Virus record (IMG/VR): IMGVR_UViG_3300032287_001642
Span: 1-25,515 of that record
From: a virus
Direction: 5' to 3' (one strand)
DNA length: 25,515 nucleotides
Shown: piece by piece, positions 1,750-13,807 of the stretch
Layout: each line of letters starts with the position of its first letter
How positions within the stretch are numbered: the first letter of the stretch is position 1
Made by a program: the position numbers and the translations under genes
The notes under the pieces: generated by a model
The model's input: only the letters and a program-made list of their open reading frames with translations
Databases searched by the model: none
Told to the model about the DNA's origin: nothing

Positions 1750-2224
1750 TTTTAGAATTCGTCGTTCATTGTGGGATAGGTTTCACGACAAGGTTTACCC
1801 AGACCCTATGAGTGGGTGCTGGATATGGGGCGGCGCTGTTAAAGAATTGGGTTATGGCGTAATTGGCTTGGGTCATCGTGAGGACGGAACGGACAAAGCC
1901 CATCGCGTTGCTTACCGGCTTTACAAAGGCGATATACCTGATGGCGCGGTAGTAATGCACTCCTGCGACAACCCGTCTTGTGTAAACCCAAATCATTTAA
2001 GTGTTGGCACCCTTGCGGACAACATGAAAGATTGCGTTAAAAAGAAACGCAATTTTGTTCCTGATAATCGCGGTGAAAAAGCAACGTGGTCTAAATTGAC
2101 CCTTAATGCTGTTAAGCATATACGCGAAAGGCTAATGACCGGCGTTGAATACGCAAGGCTTTACGGCGTAAGTAAAAGCACTATTTATCAAATATGGTGC
2201 GGCAAGAATTGGGCTAGTATTTGA
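1736..2224 (+). CDS. HNH homing endonuclease with C-terminal HTH
   Basis: 162 residues. An HNH_3-type domain is clear: SGCWIWGG (26-33), GYG (39-41), AHRVAY (55-60), His75, CDNPSCVNPNHL (77-88) and GTLADNMKDC (91-100). Residues about 118-162 form an HTH tail (YGVSKSTIYQIWCGKNW) typical of phage HNH homing enzymes. Such enzymes nick or cut a recipient phage genome and promote copying of their own gene. It sits between the terminase subunit genes. Its first eight residues, MAKGDFRI, and the 14-base overlap with the small subunit look like the former start of terminase large subunit (see findings). No group I intron core is visible around it, so it appears free-standing. Confidence 0.88.
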   Translation: MAKGDFRIRRSLWDRFHDKVYPDPMSGCWIWGGAVKELGYGVIGLGHREDGTDKAHRVAYRLYKGDIPDGAVVMHSCDNPSCVNPNHLSVGTLADNMKDCVKKKRNFVPDNRGEKATWSKLTLNAVKHIRERLMTGVEYARLYGVSKSTIYQIWCGKNWASI

Positions 2225-3547
2225 TAATCATCCCGTATTGCCCCAGAAAAGCATTTTTACCTTTACATGATTCGAGGCATCGGTGGGCCGTAATCGTCGC
2301 CCACCGGCGAAGGTGCGGGTAAAACAGTTGCTTGCATAAATCATTTAATACGCGCCGCCTTAAGTAGTGATAAGCCAGATTTTAGGGGCGCTTACGTTTC
2401 CCCGTTTTACCGGCAATCTAAAGCAGTAGCTTGGGATTACCTTAAAAGATATTCCTCAGTAGTTCCTAATCACTCTGTTAATGAATCAGAGTTAAGGATT
2501 GACTACCCCAATGGGGCGAGGATTCAGTTATTCGGTGCAGATAACGCCGATGCCTTACGGGGGATGTTCTTTGACCTTGTAGTAGCTGATGAATATGGAG
2601 ACTGGAAGCCTTCTGTGTGGGCTTACGTCATCCGTCCTGCTTTAGCTGATAGGCAGGGTAAGGCGATCATCATCGGAACCCCTAAAGGACGAAATCAGTT
2701 CTTTGAGATATACGACCTAGCCCAAAGGTCTAAAGACTGGTTAGCTTTAATGATTAAGGCTAACGATTCGGGGATTCTCCCTGAGTCTGAGTTAAACGCG
2801 CTTAAATCTGAACTGACCGAGGATGCGTGGCGGCAGGAGATGGAGTGCGACTTTGACGCGGCTTTACCTGGGGCAATTTTCGGTAAAGAGCTATGGGCTT
2901 TAGAGCAAGAGGGCAGGGTTAAGAAAGACCTCTACGACAAGAATCTAAAGACTTACGCAGTCCTAGACCTCGGGTTTAGTGATGACACGGCTATCTGGTG
3001 GTTTCAAGTCAATAAAGAACTAAGGTTAATTGACTGCTACGCCGCGTCAGGGATGCCTATAAGCCATTACCAAGAGGTTCTAAAGGGTAAGCCCTATACC
3101 TACGGGGATTGGCTGTATCTACCCCATGACGCAAGGGCTAAGAGCCTACAGACCGGACGAAGCATAGAACAGCAGTTCTCAGCTTTAGGCTGGAAGCCTC
3201 GGATAGTTCCAGAACTCGGATTGATCGACGGTGTTCAGGCTGCGCGATTAACCCTTTCAGATTGTTACTTCGATGAAAACTGTAGAGAGGGAATTGAGAC
3301 TCTTAAACAGTATCAACGCGAGTATGACGAAGAAAAGCGATGTTTTAGGGATAAGCCTAGACACGACTGGACTTCACATTACGCAGACGCTTTCAGATAC
3401 GCCTGTTTAGTCTGGCGTGAGGAAATGAAGCCTAAAGAGAAAGAGCCGCCTAAGTTTAAGGCTGGTGTGACTATCGACGGAATAAAAGTGGGTGTAACCC
3501 CCTCAGAGTTAATTAAAGAACACAGAAGAAGGAAAGAAAATGAGTAA
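2221..3547 (+). CDS. terminase large subunit, packaging ATPase-nuclease, with +1 frame change at Walker A
   Basis: The packaging motor protein. The N-terminal part is read in one frame from about 2221 (TTG; no ATG) to 2310: IPYCPRKAFLPLHDS then RWAVIVAHRR, the usual start of these ATPases. That frame stops at TAA 2320. The rest continues in the +1 frame from about 2312: GAGKTVACINHLI, then Walker B LVVADEYGDW (near 2576-2605) and motif III IIIGTPKG. The RNase H-like nuclease follows, with its acidic residues in DLGFSDD (about 2966-2989), LPHDA (about 3118-3132) and HYADAFRY (about 3377-3400). Translated from the first in-frame ATG (2564), the protein would lack Walker A. Either a four-base insertion has broken the gene, the sequence is wrong, or ribosomes shift frame. 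The 3' end overlaps the next gene by eight bases. Confidence 0.8.
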
Positions 3548-3821
3548 TCCTGTTAATGAATCTGGCACCCCTACTAATCTGAGTGCGAGTGCTGCTGTAT
3601 TCAGTGGCCCGTGTCGTCTTTTGGGTATTTGGGTATCTTCAGCTTCCTCGACTCCTACGATTAAAGTATGGAATAACACCAGTGCAGCAGGTGGAGTTAT
3701 TGCGAATACGTTTACTCCGCTTCCTGGCACGTTCTATCCACTGCCTTTCGCTTGCTCAACGGGTATCTACGTGACCATTAGTGGCACTGTAGATTGCACT
3801 GTTAGCTTTATTCCTGGTTAA
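3540..3821 (+). CDS. small beta-rich virion-associated protein
   Basis: A 93-residue protein rich in Ser, Thr, Gly and Pro, with alternating hydrophobic strands (RLLGIWVSSASSTPTIKVW, TFTPLPGTFYPLPF, GIYVTISGTVDCTVSF). It looks like a small beta-sandwich. Similar small proteins recur among phage virion genes, but I cannot name a family. Its ATG overlaps the terminase stop by eight bases, and its stop shares one base with the next ATG, so it is coupled to the adhesin that follows. A decoration or fibre-associated role is inferred from fold type and position only. Confidence 0.6.
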   Translation: MSNPVNESGTPTNLSASAAVFSGPCRLLGIWVSSASSTPTIKVWNNTSAAGGVIANTFTPLPGTFYPLPFACSTGIYVTISGTVDCTVSFIPG

Positions 3822-4834
3822 TGCTTTTAACTTGGGGTAGTTCTCAGGGATTAAACGCCCTGATGAATTCTGCGGAGTTTATTGCTGGATTCGCGGATAA
3901 AGGCTCAGGTGAGGTAGACCTGACACTAGCTAAAGGAACGGGTGCGGCTACGTTCACAAGGGCTACGACAGCGACCACGGTTAATTCTGCTGGCTTGATT
4001 GTCTCAGTAGCGAGTGGAGTTCCTCGGAGTTATTACGACCCGACTACGTTAGCTTATAGAGGGTATCTCGCGGAGGGGGCGAGGACGAATCTAGTCCTTA
4101 ACTCTTTAATCGACGGAACGGACTTTTCTACGCAATCGGTAAACGTCACTGCTGTTGCTCACACGTTAAGTTTTTACGGAACTGGAACGATAACGCTTTC
4201 AGGCGCTTCGACCGCTGGCCCGTTGGTTGGAACTGGCGTCTATCCGCAGAGGGTAAGCCTAACATTTACCCCAACAGCGGCGAGCCTGACGCTTACAGTT
4301 ACAGGCTCTTGTAAATTTGTACAGCTTGAGGTCGGAAGTTTTGCGAGTTCGTTTATCCCTACTGCTGGCGCATCGGTTACGAGAAACGCTGATGTTTTGA
4401 CTTATCCGGTAAGTGGGAATGCAAGTGCAAGTGTGGGGAGTGCTTACGCGGAAGTATCTACTTTCTGGACTGGCACAACTACAGCTATTGCGGTTGCGTT
4501 TGATACAGGCAATAACCTTCCTTTATACGTTGGCGGCGCTGCTCCTACAACGATTTACACGGCAGACGGGGTAAACGCGGTAACTAAAACCGGCCTGTCC
4601 AGTATGGCTACCGGATTAAGAAAGCGGGCAAGTTCTTACGGTGGTTCTACTCAATTAATTACTGGCGATGGATTAGACCCTCAATCTGGAACTTTTGACG
4701 GAGCAATGGCTTCGACCGCAATAGCGGTAGGTTGCGGAACCGGTGCTGGTAATCCTTGGTTCGGCACCATCCGCAATGTTCGTATTTATCAAACTCAATT
4801 AAGCGCGGCACAACTTCAGGCGGTGACAGCATGA
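3821..4834 (+). CDS. LamG/concanavalin-like tail fibre or adhesin protein
   Basis: 337 residues, low in charge and rich in Thr, Ser, Gly and Ala. Two signatures of phage adhesins with LamG-type jelly rolls are present: EGARTNLVLNS (85-95) and QLEVGSFASSFIPTAGAS (168-185) followed by VTRNADVL. The C-terminus (PWFGTIRNVRIYQTQLSAAQL) is the usual closing strand and helix of LamG domains. Such proteins bind host surface glycans or serve as fibre modules. The gene lies between terminase and portal, an unusual place for a receptor-binding protein, together with the small beta-protein before it. It overlaps the portal start by four bases (ATGA). Confidence 0.7.
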   Translation: MLLTWGSSQGLNALMNSAEFIAGFADKGSGEVDLTLAKGTGAATFTRATTATTVNSAGLIVSVASGVPRSYYDPTTLAYRGYLAEGARTNLVLNSLIDGTDFSTQSVNVTAVAHTLSFYGTGTITLSGASTAGPLVGTGVYPQRVSLTFTPTAASLTLTVTGSCKFVQLEVGSFASSFIPTAGASVTRNADVLTYPVSGNASASVGSAYAEVSTFWTGTTTAIAVAFDTGNNLPLYVGGAAPTTIYTADGVNAVTKTGLSSMATGLRKRASSYGGSTQLITGDGLDPQSGTFDGAMASTAIAVGCGTGAGNPWFGTIRNVRIYQTQLSAAQLQAVTA

Positions 4835-7122
4835 GCGAACTTGACTCCACCACTGTAGAAAAGCCTTCCGATATTGAGAAAGACCCTAAAGGTATCGTTC
4901 GTCGGTGGGTATTAGAGTGGGGTCTTGCGGATAAACGAGAGAAGGACTGGAAGAAAGACGCTGACAAGATTCTCCGTCGGTATCGTCAACGGGATGCTAA
5001 AAAGCACTCGTTTAATATCCTTTGGTCAAATACCGAGACTTTAGCCCCTGCGGTTTATAACTCTGTTCCGAAGCCTGACGTTCGCCGTAGGTTTAAGGAT
5101 GAAGATCCTGTAGGTAAGGCTGTATCTCAGGTTATGTCTCGTAGCCTTGAATTTGGCCTAGATACCACGGACTTTAATCATCAAATCGAGTCTTGCGTTC
5201 TAGACATGCTTTTGCCTGGCCGCGCTGTTGCTCGCGTTCGTTACGTTCCTTCCTTGACTCAAGTGGGTGTTACTGAAGAAACCCACGAGGAGGGCGCAGA
5301 GCAGCATGAAACAGGTGGTGAAGCTCTTGAGGGTTACGAGGAAGTTGAATGGGAGCAAGCCCCTATTGAGCATGTCCAATGGGATGACTTTAGACACGGA
5401 TTCGGTAAGTGTTGGGATGAAGTTCAATGGGTAGGGTTTAAACACAGACTCACTCGTAAAGAACTAGAGGAAAAGTTTGGTGAGATTGGTTCTTTAGTAA
5501 AGCTCGACTCCACGGATGACGAGGAGATTGAAAAAGAACGCGATGATAAGGTCTCCAATTCTTTCAGGACTGCGGAAGTCTGGGAGATTTGGGATAAAGA
5601 TAAACGCGAAGTCTTGTTTATCGCCAAGAATCACAAGGAAGAACCGTTACAGACTATCACTGACCCCCTGAACCTTCAGGGCTTCTTTCCTATCCCGCGT
5701 CCTTTGTATGCGATAGGCGACCCGTCCAGTCTTATCCCCGTTCCTCTTTTTGAACTCTACAAAGAGCAAGCGGAAGAACTGGACACGATTTCTACCCGTA
5801 TTAACAGACTGATTAAAGGTCTGAAGATGCGCGGTATTTACGACGCGACCTTATCTGAACTCTCAGAATTGATGAGGGGCGAGGATAACGACCTTATACC
5901 GGCTCAGAACGTCACGGCTTTGTTGGAGCGTGGCGGTCTTGAAAAGGCTATTTGGTTTATGCCTATCGAACAGGCCGCGAATGTCCTTAAAGTCTTGTAT
6001 GAGCAGCGGGAACTGACTAAACAAGTCATTTACGAGATTACAGGTATTGCTGATGTAATCCGTGGGTCTAGTAACGCCCAAGAGACCGCGACGGCTCAAC
6101 AGATCAAGGATAAATGGGGTTCCATGCGTCTTAGAAAGATGCAAGGGGAAGTCTCCCGTTTCATCCGTGACCTTATCCGTATTCAGGCTGAAATCATCGG
6201 TGAGAAGTTTTCTTATGAGACTTTAAAGACGATGACAGGGGTTAAATTGCCGACTGAGCAAGAGGCTCAGATGATGGCGATTCAGGCCCAACAGCAAGGA
6301 CAACAGCCGCCTCAAGTCATTACGTGGGAGCAAGTCATCCAAGTTATGCGGGATGACAAGCAAAGAACCTACAAGATTGATATTGAAACCGACTCCACTG
6401 TCGCCGCCTCTGTTGAAGGGGATATGGAGGCTCTTACTCAGCTTCTGGGTGGGATTACTCAGCTTGTGCAAGGTCTTGGCCCTGCCGTTCAGATGGGTGC
6501 AATGCCTGTTGAGAGTCTTAAAGAACTGATCTTGGTGGCTTGTCGTAGGGCGAAGATGGGCAACGCTGTCGAAGATGCCTTTGACAAGATTAAACAGCCT
6601 CCGCCGCCGCCTCAAGAACAACAACCTGAAGATAAGTCCTTGGAAGTCGAGCAACTCCGTCAACAAGGCGAACAGGCTAAGACTCAGTTTGAAGGACAGT
6701 TGGAGCAGATGAGACTTCAGCATGAAGGCCAGAGGGAACAACAAAAGGCCGAAGCTCAAGCCATGATTGAGAAGTATAAATCTGACCGTGATTCAGAGTT
6801 GGAGCAGGCTCGTTTAGCGTTTGATAAATATAAGGCTGATCTTGATTCTCAGACAAAACTGGCTATCGCAGAACTCCAAGCCCAAGCATCTAAGGAAACG
6901 ACTGCGATGGGCATATCCGCTAAAGATGAGGCTAATGAATATTCAGCGGACGGGTCTACCAAGCCAAAGGCGGGAATTGAGAAAATCGTTGCATCATTTA
7001 CTGAGAGCATGGAAAAGCTGGCCCAAGCTCAACAGGAGTCAACTGAGAAACTTGCTGAAGTATTGACTAGACCTAAGAAACTCGTTCGCGGGGCTGATGG
7101 TCGCGCTGTCGGTGTTGAATAA
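4831..7122 (+). CDS. portal protein (P22-like)
   Basis: 763 residues from ATG 4831, which overlaps the preceding stop as ATGA; the in-frame ATG at 4756 lies inside the upstream gene and is unlikely. The body has P22-type portal features, including the stretch around VIYEITGIADVIRGSSN and then QETATAQQIKDKWGSMRLRK. The length is close to P22 gp1 (725 residues). The portal forms the dodecameric ring at one capsid vertex through which terminase pumps DNA and to which the tail attaches. From about residue 600 the C-terminus is a Gln- and Glu-rich coiled coil, the counterpart of the P22 portal barrel. It starts with MSELD, as does the scaffold protein. Confidence 0.9.
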   Translation: MSELDSTTVEKPSDIEKDPKGIVRRWVLEWGLADKREKDWKKDADKILRRYRQRDAKKHSFNILWSNTETLAPAVYNSVPKPDVRRRFKDEDPVGKAVSQVMSRSLEFGLDTTDFNHQIESCVLDMLLPGRAVARVRYVPSLTQVGVTEETHEEGAEQHETGGEALEGYEEVEWEQAPIEHVQWDDFRHGFGKCWDEVQWVGFKHRLTRKELEEKFGEIGSLVKLDSTDDEEIEKERDDKVSNSFRTAEVWEIWDKDKREVLFIAKNHKEEPLQTITDPLNLQGFFPIPRPLYAIGDPSSLIPVPLFELYKEQAEELDTISTRINRLIKGLKMRGIYDATLSELSELMRGEDNDLIPAQNVTALLERGGLEKAIWFMPIEQAANVLKVLYEQRELTKQVIYEITGIADVIRGSSNAQETATAQQIKDKWGSMRLRKMQGEVSRFIRDLIRIQAEIIGEKFSYETLKTMTGVKLPTEQEAQMMAIQAQQQGQQPPQVITWEQVIQVMRDDKQRTYKIDIETDSTVAASVEGDMEALTQLLGGITQLVQGLGPAVQMGAMPVESLKELILVACRRAKMGNAVEDAFDKIKQPPPPPQEQQPEDKSLEVEQLRQQGEQAKTQFEGQLEQMRLQHEGQREQQKAEAQAMIEKYKSDRDSELEQARLAFDKYKADLDSQTKLAIAELQAQASKETTAMGISAKDEANEYSADGSTKPKAGIEKIVASFTESMEKLAQAQQESTEKLAEVLTRPKKLVRGADGRAVGVE

Positions 7123-8792
7123 TGGCGGGGATTCGGCACACTACCCCTGCTGATGGAACTTTCACCACAGAGGGCGCTAGCGCATGGAACGGTGATGAAG
7201 CGCACACCCTTTCGGATGTAGCCTCACAGACTGATCTAAACGCTTTAAGTAACGCTGTATCAGTATTGAGCAATACCAATAGCTCAGAACACGCCGGATT
7301 AAGTAACCGGATTACCTCAGTCGCGGGTCTTGCTGGTGGTGGGTCTGTTACCAGTGCCGAGGTTCAAGCGGTAAGTGTCGCGGCTCAGAGTGCGATTAAT
7401 ACAGTCTCCAATGCTTTAAGTGTTCTAAGTAACACGAATAGCTCGGAACACGCAGCTTTAAGCGCAAGAATCACCTCTGTAGCGGGTTTGGGTGGTGGTT
7501 CCGTGACTTCCGCAGAAGTCCAGGCTGTAAGTGCTGCTGCTCAGAGTGCTGTAAATACCGTTTCTGCTGCGGTTAATGTCGTTTCTAACGCGACCTCGGC
7601 TGAAATCGTTAATCGAGTCAGTGCGGACAATGTTCTAAGCGCCAATATCGCCTCGGTAGACAGTCGGGCGACTTCTATCGCTAACGCTTTGTCTGTTTTA
7701 AGCAACGCTAACAGTGCTTCTCACGTTTCGATAGATGGTCGGGTCACTTCGGTAGCCAATGCTGTCTCGGTGCTGTCTCAGGCTCTTTCCGTCCTTTCTA
7801 ACACTAACTCTGCTGCTCACGTATCTATCGACGGGCGGGTAACTTCGGTTGCTAACGCTGTCTCGGTGGTAAGCAATGCGTTAAGTGCTTTAAGTCAGAC
7901 GAATTCAGTAGATCATGCGGCTTTAAGTGCAAGGATTACCTCTGTAGCAGGGTTGGCCGGTGGTGGCTCTGTAACGAGTAACGAGTTAAGCGCGGCGATT
8001 GCAGGACAGTCATCAAGGACTGATTCTGTCTATAACGCTGTTTCTGCTCTTATAGATCGCGTTTCAGCTAATAGCGGAACTGGTGGCGGTGGAAGCGTCA
8101 CAAGCACAGAATTAAGCGCGGCGGTTCAGGGTCTATCCCTGCGGGTGGATTCTGCGGTTGCGGCTAACGCTAACAATGCCTCTGTAGCGAGTAACGCGGC
8201 TTCTGTAGCTCTTGCGGCGCAGCACGTAGCGTCAAATTACGCCTCGGTAGCGTCGGTCTACGCGAACACGGCTAGTAACTATGCCTCTGTAGCATCAAAC
8301 GCGGCTTCCGTGGCTGTAGCTGCTGCTGCGGGGATATTGGCCCCACAGGTTCGGATTGTCTCTAATACGCAGTCAACCACTGGCTCCGCCTTGGTGGATA
8401 TTTCCGGTCTAGTCCTGACGGTTGCCGCTGACCAGACTTGGGAGATTAACGGGATGCTGCTGGTTTCGGCCAGTGCCGCGACGGTGGGATTCAAAGGCGG
8501 GTGTTCTGTTCCTGTCTTGTCATTGCCTCGATACCTTGAATTTTTGCGGGTCAGTCAGGGCCAGTCAGCCGGTGCGATGGGCGGCGGTGGATTGTTGCAA
8601 GTTTCCGGCGCATCACAGCAATTGTCTTTAGCGGCCCTTGGTGGTGTCCTTGTGGGGATTACGTATCAAGGCGTTTTTAATGTGGCGAGTGCCGGCACAT
8701 TCAGAATGATGTATGCCGGTATCGCGTCCACGGCGGCAAGTCCGGTTCATATCATGCCTGGTTCTTACTTGAAAGCCATTCGACTTAAATGA
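7122..8792 (+). CDS. repeat-rich trimeric fibre/stalk protein with C-terminal knob
   Basis: 556 residues. Residues about 41-400 are low-charge Ser, Val, Ala and Asn repeats. The unit LSNTNSxEHAxLSxRITSVAG followed by a glycine run and SVTS recurs near residues 49-78, 102-130 and 258-286. A variant, SNxNSAxHVSIDGRVTSVANAVS, occurs near 194-216 and 227-249. Such repeats resemble the stalks of trimeric fibres and autotransporter-like adhesins. The last 150 residues (from about 405) are beta-rich and may be a trimeric knob. The first 40 residues could anchor the fibre. The ATG shares one base with the portal stop. Host-binding or capsid-fibre function is inferred from architecture. Confidence 0.65.
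   Translation: MAGIRHTTPADGTFTTEGASAWNGDEAHTLSDVASQTDLNALSNAVSVLSNTNSSEHAGLSNRITSVAGLAGGGSVTSAEVQAVSVAAQSAINTVSNALSVLSNTNSSEHAALSARITSVAGLGGGSVTSAEVQAVSAAAQSAVNTVSAAVNVVSNATSAEIVNRVSADNVLSANIASVDSRATSIANALSVLSNANSASHVSIDGRVTSVANAVSVLSQALSVLSNTNSAAHVSIDGRVTSVANAVSVVSNALSALSQTNSVDHAALSARITSVAGLAGGGSVTSNELSAAIAGQSSRTDSVYNAVSALIDRVSANSGTGGGGSVTSTELSAAVQGLSLRVDSAVAANANNASVASNAASVALAAQHVASNYASVASVYANTASNYASVASNAASVAVAAAAGILAPQVRIVSNTQSTTGSALVDISGLVLTVAADQTWEINGMLLVSASAATVGFKGGCSVPVLSLPRYLEFLRVSQGQSAGAMGGGGLLQVSGASQQLSLAALGGVLVGITYQGVFNVASAGTFRMMYAGIASTAASPVHIMPGSYLKAIRLK
7230..8100 (+). repeat. degenerate intragenic repeats of the fibre stalk
   Basis: At least five related units encode the NTNS/SEHA/RITSVAG or SAxHVSIDGRVTSVANAVS motifs. 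The peptide pattern is conserved while synonymous codons differ widely between units, so the duplications are old and held by selection on the protein. Confidence 0.6.
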
Positions 8793-10207
8793 AGAAAGTT
8801 ACCGGCAGGGTTTCGGCTGGTTCATCAAGTATTCAATTTGATAAGACTTACGGAAGTTCCTATTGCATCCCATTATGGTTGAGGGATGTTCAAGTCAAGA
8901 TGGCGATTAGTAAAGTCTCAGGAAGGGTTCAGAACAAAAGCAAGAAAAACCCTGAGCCTGTAGCGATTGTAGGATATGGCCCAAGCCTTAAAGACACTTG
9001 GGAAAAGTTAAAAGAATTTAAGGTAATCGTTACGACTTCAGGGGCGCATAAATTCCTGATAGACAGGGGGATTATCCCTACCTATCACGTAGACGTAGAC
9101 CCAAGGGCACACAAAGTCCTGATGTTGGGTGAGATTCGCAAGGACGTAACTTACATGCCTTGCTCGACTTGTCACCCTAACTACATTGATACATTGATTG
9201 AAGCTAAAGCCAATATCAAGCTCTGGCATTGTTTTTCTACGGAGTTAGAAGCTCTCAGGATTCTCCCCGCTGGTGAGTCTGCTTTAACAGGTGGTGCAGA
9301 TGCCGGAATGAGGGCAATGGCTGTAGCGAGGTTTATGGGGTATGTAAACCTGCATGTCTTTGGGATGGATGGCTGTTCTTTTGACGAAAAAGGACACGCT
9401 GATGAACATACCAACAAGATGAGGAAGTTCTTTGACCTTGAGTATCCCGAAGGGTCAGGAAAGATTTACAGGACTTCTCCCCATTTGTTAGACGTAGCAA
9501 AGACCGTTCCGCATGAAATCAATATGCTCAAGCTGGACTCGGTTAAGTTCTACGGTGAGGGCTTAGTTAAAGCGATTGTAGAAAACACTAAACAAGAAAA
9601 GCCTAAATTCTCAAATATCGCCTTTATCAAGCCTAAGTTGATAAGCGAGAAATACCGCAAGGAATTAGTAAAAAGACACGATCAATCTTCTGTTTTCGGG
9701 TCTGAAGGTTTCAAATACGCAGAAGTTGTAAGGAAGCTAGTCAAAGCGACTAACTCTGTATCTGTTTTGGATTACGGCTGCGGGAAGGGTGTTCTAGCTG
9801 CAAAACTAGACTTTCCGATTTGGGAATATGACCCCGCGATAAAAGGTAAGGAATTAACCCCTAAACCTGCTGACTTGGTGGTTTGCACCAATGTCCTAGA
9901 GTTAGTTGAGGATGAATTCTTACCTGACGTTTTGGGTGATCTCTCAAGGTGTGTAAAGAAAGTCGGTTACTTCACGATGGGCGTAGGCACTCCTGATTAT
10001 TGGGAGAAGCTACTAATTCAAGTCTTTTACGTGGGTAAAGTCTCACTAGAAAACGGTGAAGTCATCGCGGTGGTCGGCCCGAAAGTCACCAAGATGCAGA
10101 AGAAAGATCGGGTAGTAATGACCGATGAAGTCTCTTACGTTAAACAACCAGCCTACGGTGTAAACACTCCATTCAACGGTGATTTAAAGATAGCCCATGT
10201 CTACTAA
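8789..10207 (+). CDS. DUF115 (MptE/Maf-like) domain fused to SAM methyltransferase
   Basis: 472 residues. Residues about 57-265 form a DUF115-type domain: PVAIVGYGPSLKDTW (57-71), VDVDP (101-105), TGGADAGMRAMAVARFMGY (167-185) and FGMDGCSF (191-198). DUF115 occurs in flagellin-glycosylating Maf proteins, in 6-hydroxymethylpterin pyrophosphokinase MptE and in phages. Residues about 322-470 form a class I SAM-dependent methyltransferase, with motif I VLDYGCGKGVLA (326-337) and CTNVLE at the motif IV position. Together they suggest transfer and methylation of a sugar or nucleotide-linked group. The ATGA overlap ties it to the fibre gene before it. A second DUF115 gene lies at 14295. Substrate and partner are unknown. 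Confidence 0.75.
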   Translation: MKKVTGRVSAGSSSIQFDKTYGSSYCIPLWLRDVQVKMAISKVSGRVQNKSKKNPEPVAIVGYGPSLKDTWEKLKEFKVIVTTSGAHKFLIDRGIIPTYHVDVDPRAHKVLMLGEIRKDVTYMPCSTCHPNYIDTLIEAKANIKLWHCFSTELEALRILPAGESALTGGADAGMRAMAVARFMGYVNLHVFGMDGCSFDEKGHADEHTNKMRKFFDLEYPEGSGKIYRTSPHLLDVAKTVPHEINMLKLDSVKFYGEGLVKAIVENTKQEKPKFSNIAFIKPKLISEKYRKELVKRHDQSSVFGSEGFKYAEVVRKLVKATNSVSVLDYGCGKGVLAAKLDFPIWEYDPAIKGKELTPKPADLVVCTNVLELVEDEFLPDVLGDLSRCVKKVGYFTMGVGTPDYWEKLLIQVFYVGKVSLENGEVIAVVGPKVTKMQKKDRVVMTDEVSYVKQPAYGVNTPFNGDLKIAHVY

Positions 10208-10592
10208 CTTTTTTAATGGGTCATTCTTTAACGGTAACTTTTACGGCTCAAGTCCTGCGCCTGTAGATGTATTTTCATTAGGGCAGGGCGACGATTATCC
10301 AGGTTGGGATAAGAGGGCTTGGAAGAAGCGTAAGACTCAAGAGGATGCTTTAGAGCAGACGATTGAGGAAACGTATAAGAAAGTCATGGGTATTGCTCCT
10401 ACCCAGACCTTCGTAGCTAAAGCCAAGAAAGAGATTAAACAGCAGGTCGTAGAGACTAAGCGAGAGTTTGAAGATTACTCTCAGGTCATTTCTTGGCTAC
10501 AGACTCAACAGATGCTTGTTGATAAATACATCAATGAGCTTTTACTTCAACGCGAAATAGACGATGAGGAAACTTTCCTCTTACTCATGTGA
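10197..10592 (+). CDS. hypothetical protein with Phe/Asn/Gly-rich N-terminus
   Basis: 131 residues, overlapping the previous gene by 11 bases. The start, MSTNFFNGSFFNGNFYGSS, is a Phe-Asn-Gly repeat of the type often found at the start of small phage virion-region proteins. Residues about 45-131 are charged and helical (KKRKTQEDALEQTIEETYKK), ending in a Leu-rich helix. No catalytic motif is visible. The position between fibre, glycan and scaffold genes suggests a head-associated accessory role, but the function is not recognised. Confidence 0.55.
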   Translation: MSTNFFNGSFFNGNFYGSSPAPVDVFSLGQGDDYPGWDKRAWKKRKTQEDALEQTIEETYKKVMGIAPTQTFVAKAKKEIKQQVVETKREFEDYSQVISWLQTQQMLVDKYINELLLQREIDDEETFLLLM

Positions 10593-10966
10593 TTTACGAA
10601 TCCAGATGCAGAATTTGTAATAAGACCCACGAATACATAAAACCGGCGAGCCAGTATCTTGACTCGCCTTTTTGTTGTGGTGAGAGGACAGAGAAGGTCA
10701 TTCTTAATCCTCCGATGGGTCATGTGGTGAATATCCACTATACAAGCCCGATAGACGGTAGACCGATTACCACTAAACAAGCTCGTATTAACGACCTGAG
10801 AGCAAATAACTGTAGACCGTGGGAGGGCTTGGAGCAGGAAAAGAAAGTAGCCCAAGAACGTAAGGCCCACGAAGAAAAGATTGAAGATAAGAAGATAGAG
10901 GCTGCTGCTGTTCAAGCGTGGCAGTCCTTAAAACCTGAACAACGTAAAGTTTTGGAGACTACTTAA
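10589..10966 (+). CDS. small zinc-ribbon protein (FmdB-like N-terminus)
   Basis: 125 residues from GTG 10589, whose last two bases begin the upstream stop (GTGA overlap). The N-terminus MIYESRCRICNKTHEY and then SPFCCGERTEKV has the CxxC and CC pairs of a small zinc ribbon, as in FmdB-like proteins common in phage head operons. The second half is a basic and acidic helix (EQEKKVAQERKAHEEKIEDKK). It may bind nucleic acid or act during head assembly; nothing in the sequence decides between these. Two hairpins follow its stop. Confidence 0.6.
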   Translation: MIYESRCRICNKTHEYIKPASQYLDSPFCCGERTEKVILNPPMGHVVNIHYTSPIDGRPITTKQARINDLRANNCRPWEGLEQEKKVAQERKAHEEKIEDKKIEAAAVQAWQSLKPEQRKVLETT

Positions 10967-11046
10967 CCCTACCGCAAGGGTTCCGCCCTCTGTCGTGAGA
11001 CATGGCTTGCCGGTGACGCGGTTTAACCGGCTTTGACGAGGTTTTT
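10965..11046 (+). promoter_or_regulatory. two-hairpin leader before the scaffold gene
   Basis: This is one of the few gaps in the tightly packed operon. AACCCT 10965-10970 pairs with AGGGTT 10977-10982 and overlaps the upstream stop codon. GCCGGT 11009-11014 pairs with ACCGGC 11026-11031. No T-run follows either stem, so they are not ordinary terminators. They could be RNA processing or stability elements that set high scaffold and capsid expression. GAGG lies five to six bases before the scaffold ATG. Confidence 0.35.
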
Positions 11047-12105
11047 ATGAGCGAACTGGATACCCAGTCGGAAGTTGAAGAAGTCGTAGAACAGGAAGCC
11101 CCCGTAGTTAAGTCAATGGATGACACCATCCGCGAGACTTACGAAGCAATCCAGAATCGGGGAGAGGAAACAGAGGAACAGGCCGAAGCTCGCGAACGGG
11201 ATGAAAAAGGCCGTTTTAAAGCCTCCCAAAAGGCCGAGGAAGCCCCTGTAGAGGTTTCTGATCCGGTGGTAGAGGAAACACCCGTAGAGGTCGCTCCGGT
11301 GGAACCTGTGCCGGTTGTGGTGCCTCCTGAAGTCCAAAGGCTAGGACTTAAAAAAGAAGAAGCCGAGGCTTACGCGCAAGCCCCTGAAGTCCTTAAACAA
11401 GCATTTATCCGTAGATCGGAGGAAATGCACAAAGGACTAGAGCAGTTCAGGACTAAAGCGCAGTTTGGTCATCAAATGGAACAAGTGATTGCTCCGTTTA
11501 CCCAACAAATTCAAGCGATGGGCGCGACCCCAGAAATGGCGGTGTCTCGACTACTCGCAGCAGAATCTCAACTTAGGAACGGAAGCCCTGAACAAAAACA
11601 GGCGATGTTCTTTAAGTTGGCCCAAGACTACGGAGTTCAGCTTAACGGTGAAATGCCGACGGTTGACCCGAACGTATCCGTCCTTCAACAGCAAATACAG
11701 CAGTTGACGGGATGGATTCAGCAAAAGCAGCAGAGGGAAGAACAAGCGCAGCAGGAAACACTGAACAGTGAAATCCAGCGTTTCGCATCCAACCCTGCAA
11801 ATAAGCACTTTGAGGCTGTTCGTAATGACATGGCTGCTCTCTTACAGGGCGGAATCGTTACTACGCTTCAAGAAGCCTACGACCGCGCAGTTTACGCAAA
11901 TCCGAACACTCGAACTCAGTTGCTTGCAGAACAACAAGCGCAGTCTGAAGTTAAACGGAAGGCGGAACTCGCTCAGAAGGCACAGGAAGCCAAGAAAGCC
12001 GCGAGTGTGAATGTTCCTAAAAAGGGAAGTTCTACTCCTAAACGGCCTGTTGGCACTATGGACGAAACAATCCGAGCTACAGCAGAAAGGCTCGGACTAA
12101 TTTAA
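11047..12105 (+). CDS. scaffolding protein
   Basis: 352 residues, highly charged, with a long acidic/Pro/Val N-terminal part (residues 1-95), a helical, Gln-rich middle (about 95-300) and a basic C-terminus (KAQEAKKAASVNVPKKGSS). These are typical of phage scaffolds, which guide coat assembly and then leave the procapsid. It lies directly before the major capsid gene, as in P22-like phages. The motif MDDTIRETYEAI at 24-35 is echoed at the extreme C-terminus as MDETIRATAERL (338-349). In P22 the C-terminal helices bind coat. The assignment rests on composition and position; no catalytic motif is expected. Confidence 0.8.
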   Translation: MSELDTQSEVEEVVEQEAPVVKSMDDTIRETYEAIQNRGEETEEQAEARERDEKGRFKASQKAEEAPVEVSDPVVEETPVEVAPVEPVPVVVPPEVQRLGLKKEEAEAYAQAPEVLKQAFIRRSEEMHKGLEQFRTKAQFGHQMEQVIAPFTQQIQAMGATPEMAVSRLLAAESQLRNGSPEQKQAMFFKLAQDYGVQLNGEMPTVDPNVSVLQQQIQQLTGWIQQKQQREEQAQQETLNSEIQRFASNPANKHFEAVRNDMAALLQGGIVTTLQEAYDRAVYANPNTRTQLLAEQQAQSEVKRKAELAQKAQEAKKAASVNVPKKGSSTPKRPVGTMDETIRATAERLGLI

Positions 12106-12114
12106 GGATAAATC

Positions 12115-12210
12115 ATGGCCACTCCTGGTCAAAGCACACTGTTTACCACCTTTACGGAATTGGTCTCTACGACCTACCGTAACCACAGCAAGGAAATTGC
12201 TGACAACGTT
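12115..12210 (+). CDS. major capsid protein, exon 1 (codons 1-32)
   Basis: The ATG at 12115 follows AAGGA with good spacing and opens a frame of 32 codons ending ...HSKEIADNV before TGA at 12211. The SKxxADNV motif is the conserved N-terminal arm of a widespread phage major capsid family, where it continues NNNALL or similar. The matching continuation STHNALFRRM occurs 715 bases downstream in 12926-13807. The stop lies in a group I intron; splicing after GTT 12208-12210 restores one 325-residue coat protein. The intron falls between codons (phase 0). Confidence 0.85.
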
Positions 12211-12925
12211 TGATTTGAGACGTTACAAAACCCCGTGAATTGCTGGAAACCCCTAACGTAAAGACGAGGGCAATCAGCAGCCAAGCGCCGTAGGAATACG
12301 GTGAAGGTTCAACGACTAACGCATGGAGTCCAGGCCGGACAGTAAAGCGACACGAGCGCGGGGCAACAGTTTTTAACCAGAGAGGGGAATCCCGAATGGC
12401 GATAGTTTACGCAATAGAAAACACCGTAAATGGATGGGCTTATATCGGAGTTACTTCCGCAAAGCTATCTAAAAGGATGCGAGAGCATCGTTGTTTATGC
12501 CGGAATAAAAAGCATCACGCGGTTAAATTAACCGATGACTGGCACATATACGGAGAGGGGGCTTTTGTAATCAAAGCCCTTGAGGAAACCGAATACACGC
12601 ACAGAGGCGCGTTTTGCGAGGCTGAACAAAAGTGGATAGCCCACTATTTAAGCCAAGGCAAACTGTATAACGCGATGGAAAAGTCAGTGGGTCTTACTAA
12701 AGACGCATGGGCTAAAGGTGTAGAGGCTTCCCGTAAGTCAACTGGAAATAGATGGACACCAGAGGCTAACGAAAAGCGTAGATTGGCGCAGCTTGGAAAA
12801 CCGAAAGGACACGGCGCGAAGATAAGCGCCACCAAGCAAGCTAAAAAATTGTTGATGATATAGTCTGACCACCAGTCGAAAGCTGGTGAAGCTAGGGATA
12901 AAGAGCCTTAGCGATAACATGGGTG
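12211..12925 (+). ncRNA. self-splicing group I intron in the major capsid gene
   Basis: The intron is 715 bases. P1: exon AACGTT (12205-12210) pairs with the internal guide GACGTT (12219-12224), leaving the canonical U-G pair at the 5' splice site. P10: the first exon 2 bases TCAA (12926-12929) pair with TTGA (12215-12218). The intron ends in G 12925. Conserved core strings are present in order: P (AATTGCTGG, near 12238), Q (CAATCAGCAG, near 12270), R (GTTCAACGACTA, 12307-12318) and S (GATATAGTCT, 12857-12866). R and S form P7. P9 is 12870-12875/12883-12888, and a further stem is 12891-12897/12906-12912. A GIY-YIG endonuclease gene lies between R and S. Splicing needs only guanosine and the RNA fold. 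Confidence 0.93.
12396..12863 (+). CDS. intron-encoded GIY-YIG homing endonuclease
   Basis: 155 residues. The GIY-YIG module is a variant, VYAIENTVNGWAYIGVTS (4-21), with Arg27 and His31 in the next helix, the metal-binding Glu in CEAEQKWI (around 74-81) and LYN at 90-92. Residues about 120-150 (RRLAQLGKPKGHGAKISATK) resemble a NUMOD DNA-binding element typical of these enzymes. It would cut intron-less capsid genes near the exon junction, so that repair copies the intron. The ATG is preceded by GAGAGGGG. Its stop TAG (12861-12863) falls inside the intron's S element. It has its own reading frame and is not fused to exon 1. Confidence 0.9.
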   Translation: MAIVYAIENTVNGWAYIGVTSAKLSKRMREHRCLCRNKKHHAVKLTDDWHIYGEGAFVIKALEETEYTHRGAFCEAEQKWIAHYLSQGKLYNAMEKSVGLTKDAWAKGVEASRKSTGNRWTPEANEKRRLAQLGKPKGHGAKISATKQAKKLLMI

Positions 12926-13807
12926 TCAACCCACAACGCACTGTTCCGCCGGATGACCGAAAAAGGTCGTATTCGTCTGGAAGATGGCGGTCTGTCGATT
13001 GTTCAACCCCTCGACTACGCTGAAAACACGACTTACCAGCGTTACTCTGGTTATGACGTTCTTAACGTCGCCGCGAGTGATGTGATTTCGGCTGCTGAGT
13101 TTCCGTGGCGTCAAGTCTCGGTCAACGTCGCTGCTTCCGGTCTTGAGATTCGCACGAACTCTGGTGCTAACCGCATCATCAATTTCGTTAAAGCGAAAAT
13201 CAAGAACGCGCAACGCACGATGGCTAACGGTCTTTCTGATGACCTTTATTCGGATGGCACCGCGTCTAACCAGATGAACGGCCTTCAGGCGATTATCGCT
13301 GATGCTGGCACTGGCACCGTTGGCGGTATCAATAGCTCGACGTTTAGCTTCTGGCAAAACCAAGTCCGTGACGCTTCGGATAACTCGGTCACTGTCTCGG
13401 CGGCGACTATCGAAGCTGGAATGATGCTCCCGCTGTGGCTGGCTACGACTCGCGGTAACGATACGCCGGACCTGATTGTTATGGACCCTGTGTATTTCGC
13501 GTTCTACGAAGCCTCTCAATCGAGCCTCAAGCGTTACGCCCCGTCTGACGATGGTAAGGGCGGCATGATCTCGATGAAATACAAGACCGCTGATGTGTTC
13601 TTTGATTCGACCGCATCGGGTATTCCGGCCTCGCATATGTATTTCATCAATACGGACTTCCTTGAACTCGTCGCGCATCAAGACGCGAACATGGAAATCA
13701 TGCCGGAACTGCGCTCGGTCAATCAGGACGCGATTGTTATTCCGATTCTGTTCCAAGGCAACTTGGTTGTTTCTAATCGCGCTCGTCAGGGCGTAGGCAA
13801 GGCTTAA
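12926..13807 (+). CDS. major capsid protein, exon 2
   Basis: 293 codons plus stop. The sequence runs STHNALFRRMTEKGRIR, then GGLSIVQPLDYAENTTYQRYSGYD, then AAEFPWRQVSVNVAASGLEI: the usual order for a large family of HK97-fold major capsid proteins found with P22-like portals. Joined to exon 1 it gives 325 residues, a normal length for this family. It forms the icosahedral shell. Codon choice (CGC, CTG, TCG, GGC) is visibly more GC-rich and uniform than in the genes around it, as expected for the most abundant protein. A GTG at 12923 could be taken as a start, but its last base is the intron's terminal G. Confidence 0.92.
   Translation, partial: STHNALFRRMTEKGRIRLEDGGLSIVQPLDYAENTTYQRYSGYDVLNVAASDVISAAEFPWRQVSVNVAASGLEIRTNSGANRIINFVKAKIKNAQRTMANGLSDDLYSDGTASNQMNGLQAIIADAGTGTVGGINSSTFSFWQNQVRDASDNSVTVSAATIEAGMMLPLWLATTRGNDTPDLIVMDPVYFAFYEASQSSLKRYAPSDDGKGGMISMKYKTADVFFDSTASGIPASHMYFINTDFLELVAHQDANMEIMPELRSVNQDAIVIPILFQGNLVVSNRARQGVGKA

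Follow-up and report, generated by a model that had tools for sequence, protein, structure and literature searches.

The major capsid gene of an uncultured tailed phage is almost certainly interrupted, directly after codon 32, by a mobile group I intron that would splice itself out of the transcript and would spread by homing with a GIY-YIG enzyme encoded in its P8 loop, an element that appears tied to this one site and yet recently mobile. The DNA analysed here, referred to as the window, is a virus record of 25,515 bases in which the head genes follow the order seen in tailed phages: HNH, terL, portal, a scaffold-like gene and capsid. The interrupted gene is composed of the following parts.

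12115–12210, + strand: exon 1 of the major capsid gene (codons 1–32, MATPGQ...ADNV), which in L003 and 70 other loci runs on into exon 2
12211–12925, + strand: group I intron of 715 nt, with an in-frame TGA as its first codon and G as its final base, identified by RF00028 and by 36 distinct introns at the same site
12926–13807, + strand: exon 2 of the major capsid gene (STHNALF...), matching PHROG 9953, major head protein (E 2.7e-70)

Translation of 12115–12210 yields MATPGQSTLFTTFTELVSTTYRNHSKEIADNV, and TGA at 12211 comes next; the coordinates given in a preliminary description of this DNA, with exon 1 ending in ADNV at an in-frame stop and STHNALF resuming at 12926, were borne out. In a mechanically compiled list of open reading frames, the capsid frame starts at GTG 12923, which is the last codon of the intron. 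A gene caller would therefore drop the first 32 residues of the coat protein, as had been anticipated. These residues are conserved in intron-less relatives, with M1, P4, E15, L16, T19, T20, R22, H24, K26, D30 and V32 being invariant in a 20-sequence alignment. An AlphaFold2 model of the capsid protein, obtained with a 20-sequence alignment, had a mean pLDDT of 30.7 and was too poor to place residue 32 in the fold.

A search of IMG/VR with exon 2 alone as the query gave 80 related capsid loci. The site is spanned by 77 of them, of which 71 have no interruption and six carry an insertion. The closest uninterrupted locus that covers the full gene, L003, has 98.8% identity to the joined protein; relative to exon 1 of the window it differs at 5 of 96 bases. 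In this locus ADNV runs straight into STHN, and the same direct continuation, on which the preliminary description had made its proposal depend, was found in the 70 other loci. Both splice sites are thus established by the empty-site join in L003 and not by P10. Judged from these comparisons, the interruption is far beyond chance, given that most relatives are uninterrupted and that the intron carriers share both the site and compensatory pairing.

The covariance-model check that had been suggested with the Rfam group I model produced a match to RF00028 at 12201–12888, scoring 63.7 bits where the gathering score is 50 (E 3.1e-14), with the full model (1–253) aligned. It was the sole Rfam match in the window at E values up to 1. 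Several of the introns of relatives score below the Rfam gathering score, and the 5' halves differ among subfamilies; given that this score misses related introns, lack of an Rfam match was not read as absence of an intron. The RNA elements that we located are listed below.

12205–12210, + strand: 5' strand of P1 on the exon side, AACGTT; 6/6 pairs in 36/36 introns, with compensatory CAGGTT/GACCTG in L039 and L128
12215–12218, + strand: intron strand of P10, TTGA; partner 12926–12929, 4/4 pairs in the window, not conserved in relatives
12219–12224, + strand: 3' strand of P1, the internal guide sequence GACGTT; pairs with 12205–12210
12231–12237, + strand: 5' strand of P3, CCCCGTG; partner 12357–12363, 216/217 cells paired, changes on both sides at 4/7 pairs
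12241–12246, + strand: 5' strand of P4, TGCTGG; partner 12274–12279, 6/6 pairs in 36/36 introns with four pair sets, for example TCGGTG/CACCGA
12274–12279, + strand: 3' strand of P4, TCAGCA; partner 12241–12246
12314–12318, + strand: 5' strand of P7, GACTA, the R element; partner 12861–12865, 154/155 cells paired, one double change
12357–12363, + strand: 3' strand of P3, CGCGGGG; partner 12231–12237
12365–12374, + strand: 5' strand of P8, AACAGTTTTT; partner 12844–12853, from the Rfam alignment, with the endonuclease gene in the P8 loop
12861–12865, + strand: 3' strand of P7, TAGTC, the S element; includes the endonuclease stop codon TAG at 12861–12863
12870–12888, + strand: P9 hairpin, CACCAG/CTGGTG; 81% of cells paired, changes on both sides at 5/6 pairs
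12891–12912, + strand: P9.1-like hairpin, GCTAGGG/CCTTAGC; 200/201 cells paired, four pairs with changes on both sides

Pairing cells were scored on 31 distinct intron sequences, and the 6/6 counts for P1 and P4 refer to 36 distinct introns. The proposed P1 is present in full, with six of six pairs and a U.G pair at the 5' splice site. In the family all of its cells were paired (186/186), and two pairs were changed on both sides (AACGTT/GACGTT versus CAGGTT/GACCTG). Compensatory changes were found in P1, P3, P4, P9 and P9.1, and most helix pairing was lost when the partners were slid by one or two columns as a control. P4 was scored after re-anchoring, given that the MAFFT alignment, in which the P5/P6 region was misaligned between subfamilies, gave only 42% paired. 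The match to RF00028, the empty-site relatives and these compensatory base changes together support the group I intron and the splice sites originally proposed for it.

The role assigned to P10 in the preliminary description, that of fixing the 3' splice site, was not borne out for the family. All four pairs can form in the window, but across the 31 sequences P10 paired in 35% of cells versus 33–46% in the slid controls, and a contiguous P10 was found in only 3 of 36 introns (those of the window, L002 and L019). P10 may help in the window but is not a feature of the family, in which it does not fix the 3' site. A possible stem in the stretch inserted after the 5' strand of P7 was 86% paired in a test limited to 3 bp; this stretch bears on assignment to subgroup IA, in which the extra helices P7.1 and P7.2 lie between P7 and P3.

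With the endonuclease protein alone as the query, 45 loci with 42–99% identity were retrieved from IMG/VR, every one of them at a capsid gene of the same family; in one, L168, the contig stops just inside exon 2. The loci of all searches together yielded 36 distinct introns, inserted at exactly the same position in phase 0. Each begins with an in-frame stop codon (TGA or TAA), ends with G and forms P1 with six of six pairs. The introns of L160–L162 apparently lie one codon downstream of the shared site. Short introns of 295 and 288 nt, both without an endonuclease gene, occupy the site in L019 and L077, respectively, and the same arrangement of capsid intron and endonuclease was found in a GTDB MAG contig, L362.

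Capsid genes of this family also contain group I introns or other insertions at further sites, at about codons 69, 75, 87 and 112 (L162, L166, L167, L171, L175, L156, L170, L073, L079 and L372). Extra group I introns are present in intron-bearing relatives near codon 75 (L166 and L171) and codon 87 (L175), and a group I intron is present near codon 69 in L073 and L079, all of these codon numbers being approximate. The capsid gene of L162 (3523–5300) has two additional intron sites and thus three introns in total.

The start of the open reading frame at GTG 12923 would also be expected if the element were a degenerate, non-splicing intron or a homing-endonuclease insertion, with a shortened capsid protein made from this codon within it. 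We regard such an origin as highly improbable, given that all core helices are intact and covarying, that the 32 N-terminal residues are conserved across the intron-less relatives in the 20-sequence alignment, and that the reading frame and splice sites are kept in 36 introns. For the splicing intron that we favour, the late transcript would fold into a group I core and guanosine would attack after U12210. The free end of exon 1 would then attack after G12925, and the joined mRNA, as predicted from the RNA structure and the empty-site alleles, would encode a capsid protein of 325 residues. The spliced junction would read ...GACAACGTT followed directly by TCAACCCAC.... Given that the first codon of the intron is TGA, unspliced mRNA would stop at codon 33, with loss of the capsid product from that message.

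The endonuclease gene, on which the preliminary description was silent, is the most informative part of the intron. It and the element preceding it are as follows.

12384–12393, + strand: small hairpin GGGGAATCCC just before the endonuclease start, covering the likely ribosome-binding site; equivalents are present in relatives
12396–12863, + strand: GIY-YIG homing endonuclease ORF of 155 amino acids in the P8 loop; PF01541 (E 3.3e-9) and PHROG homing endonuclease (E 1.9e-15)

The protein aligns with the catalytic domain of I-TevI, the only match with a solved structure, for which sequence similarity amounts to no more than E 0.002. The residues at the positions of R27 and E75 are kept, and the domain is intact. 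The stop codon of the gene doubles as part of the 3' strand of P7. The hairpin ahead of the start codon takes the forms GGAGAATTCC, GGGCGAACCC, GGGGCATCCC and GGAGTATTCC in relatives, always able to pair, and may restrain translation of the endonuclease.

Comparison of the window with L141, which is on the same contig as L002, revealed 98.5% identity for the intron (11 of 715 positions differ) but 78% for exon 1 and 94.4% for exon 2. The discrepancy between intron and exon 1 indicates that the intron has also moved recently between close relatives. Intron-plus and intron-minus alleles exist at one site, with introns more alike than their flanks. The contig L127 differs from the window at two positions in 2220–12120 (9.9 kb) and at 31 positions in 12121–12392 (272 bases), where it switches to an exon 1 like that of L002. 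This switch looks like allele replacement around the intron, although L127 ends there and could have a chimeric end; chimeras are a risk with metagenomic contigs, and the case for recombination between the window and L127 is weaker for that reason. The window itself is a metagenomic virus contig, and this origin, together with the abrupt change of allele beside exon 1 in L127, might raise the possibility that an assembly error or a mixture of strains, and not a real insertion, accounts for the stretch separating the exons. The insertion recurs at the same base, however, in independent metagenomes and in the GTDB MAG contig L362. An identical insertion in independent contigs leaves this explanation with next to no probability, and we rejected it.

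The family also bears signs of long residence at the capsid site. Among 27 intron-bearing phages, endonuclease distances and capsid distances were correlated (Mantel r 0.82, p 0.0005). Identities to the window for endonuclease and capsid, respectively, were 0.67 and 0.70 in L039 and 0.46 and 0.40 in L163. Such correlated divergence indicates that the lineage kept to one site while the capsid proteins diverged to about 39% identity. With regard to mobility, the GIY-YIG enzyme would cut intron-less capsid alleles of co-infecting relatives at the same site, and repair would copy the intron in. We infer such homing from the intron-plus and intron-minus alleles, the mismatch between intron and exon identities, and the conserved catalytic residues.

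Why the intron persists is a separate matter. The preliminary description had suggested that splicing could limit the supply of capsid protein, and an intron retained because regulated splicing tunes capsid output, and not because it is selfish or competitive, would be consistent with long persistence at one site and with the conserved hairpin ahead of the endonuclease start. We consider this unlikely, given that 71 of 77 relatives do without the intron and that the capsid intron of mycobacteriophage LittleE is reported to be efficiently spliced (PMC3706429). A somewhat better, though still speculative, proposal is that the lineage is a long-term specialist of the capsid site that persists as a weapon: when relatives without the intron co-infect the cell, the endonuclease would cut their capsid gene at a stretch so conserved that it cannot readily mutate, and the hairpin over the ribosome-binding site would time the attack.

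The T4 td intron, like the element in the window, belongs to group I, resides in a phage and carries the gene of a GIY-YIG enzyme, I-TevI, in one of its peripheral loops, but its host gene is td and not a capsid gene. The endonuclease is encoded in the P6a loop of the td intron and in the P8 loop here. For LittleE, RT-PCR and protein sequencing have demonstrated an intron, accompanied by a homing endonuclease, in the major capsid gene (Pope et al. 2013, PMC3706429), and the same paper cites a capsid gene intron in lactococcal phage Tuc2009. Like the intron in the window, that of LittleE is located in a major capsid gene, has U before the 5' splice site and G at its 3' end, is accompanied by a homing endonuclease, and is lacking in close relatives. 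It differs in the capsid gene and position, in its LAGLIDADG-like frame on the opposite strand, and in its class, which was described only as "most likely group I"; its splicing was shown experimentally, whereas that of the intron in the window is predicted.

Group I introns in large number, part of them confirmed by metatranscriptome reads, split essential genes including terL in Jug phages; these are huge gut phages, unlike the present one, and the capsid gene is not named as a target in the consulted part of that report (PMC12363816). In PhiPA3, experiments have shown that an intron-encoded endonuclease interferes with a phage infecting the same cell and contributes to competition (PMC11620839). 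This is similar to the role proposed here in concerning competition between co-infecting phages, although the target gene and the endonuclease differ. The suggestion that insertion at this capsid position may not have been described therefore stands only for the position, a capsid-gene intron being already known from LittleE (PMC3706429). In a literature search of incomplete coverage, capsid-gene introns were found only in LittleE and Tuc2009, with none in this capsid family or at this site, nor was any account found of a single intron and endonuclease lineage that has long been bound to a capsid site.

We also noted several features elsewhere in the window. The HNH gene (1736–2224) lies directly upstream of terL (2227–3547), the frame of which is broken in Walker A by an AGGT (2311–2314) inserted directly after the HRR codons and before those for AGKT; loci L279–L297 and L373–L408 belong to the same set. 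A search of IMG/VR for the pattern CAYCGNCGNAGGTGCNGGNAARAC gave 39 stretches, among which 27 different downstream sequences were distinguished. The AGKT frame is open for 388–435 codons where the contig end does not cut it, and the upstream frame usually stops within six codons. A terL with an insertion follows each of the 20 closest HNH homologues (AGGT in 19 and TAATGT in one), and none of the 78 loci that had a full-length terL start but no HNH match carried an insertion; some AGGT forms of terL may have no HNH gene nearby, as judged by a crude motif test only. At the same terL codon boundary, TAATGT with an in-frame stop is present beside an HNH gene in L202 and L278 (L202 2746–2751), and TAGC is present in L249 (897–900), where the HNH gene is not visible. 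Conservation of a frame break in the essential gene terL suggests programmed +1 frameshifting or bypass. The break is comparable to that of T4 gene 60, which adjoins a homing endonuclease, and to the Hau3 terminase, for which bypass has been proposed (PMC5009743). A non-coding region at 723–1010, before the terS region, ends in a terminator-like hairpin and a T-run and had no Rfam match up to E 1. A long fibre-like gene at 7122–8792 is rich in repeats of the VSN/SVLS type, and its internal DNA repeats appear as multiple blastn matches.

The intron is a clear case of a known type of element, and its family has stayed at a single capsid site across dozens of uncultured phages that have diverged from one another. 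Wherever it is present in this phage group, capsid genes would be annotated without their first 32 residues. The 36 introns at one site, the intron-minus sister alleles and the forms lacking an endonuclease constitute an unusually complete natural series, one suited to testing by what means a homing intron endures in a gene that is usually expressed more strongly than any other of the virus, and whether it serves in competition between phages.
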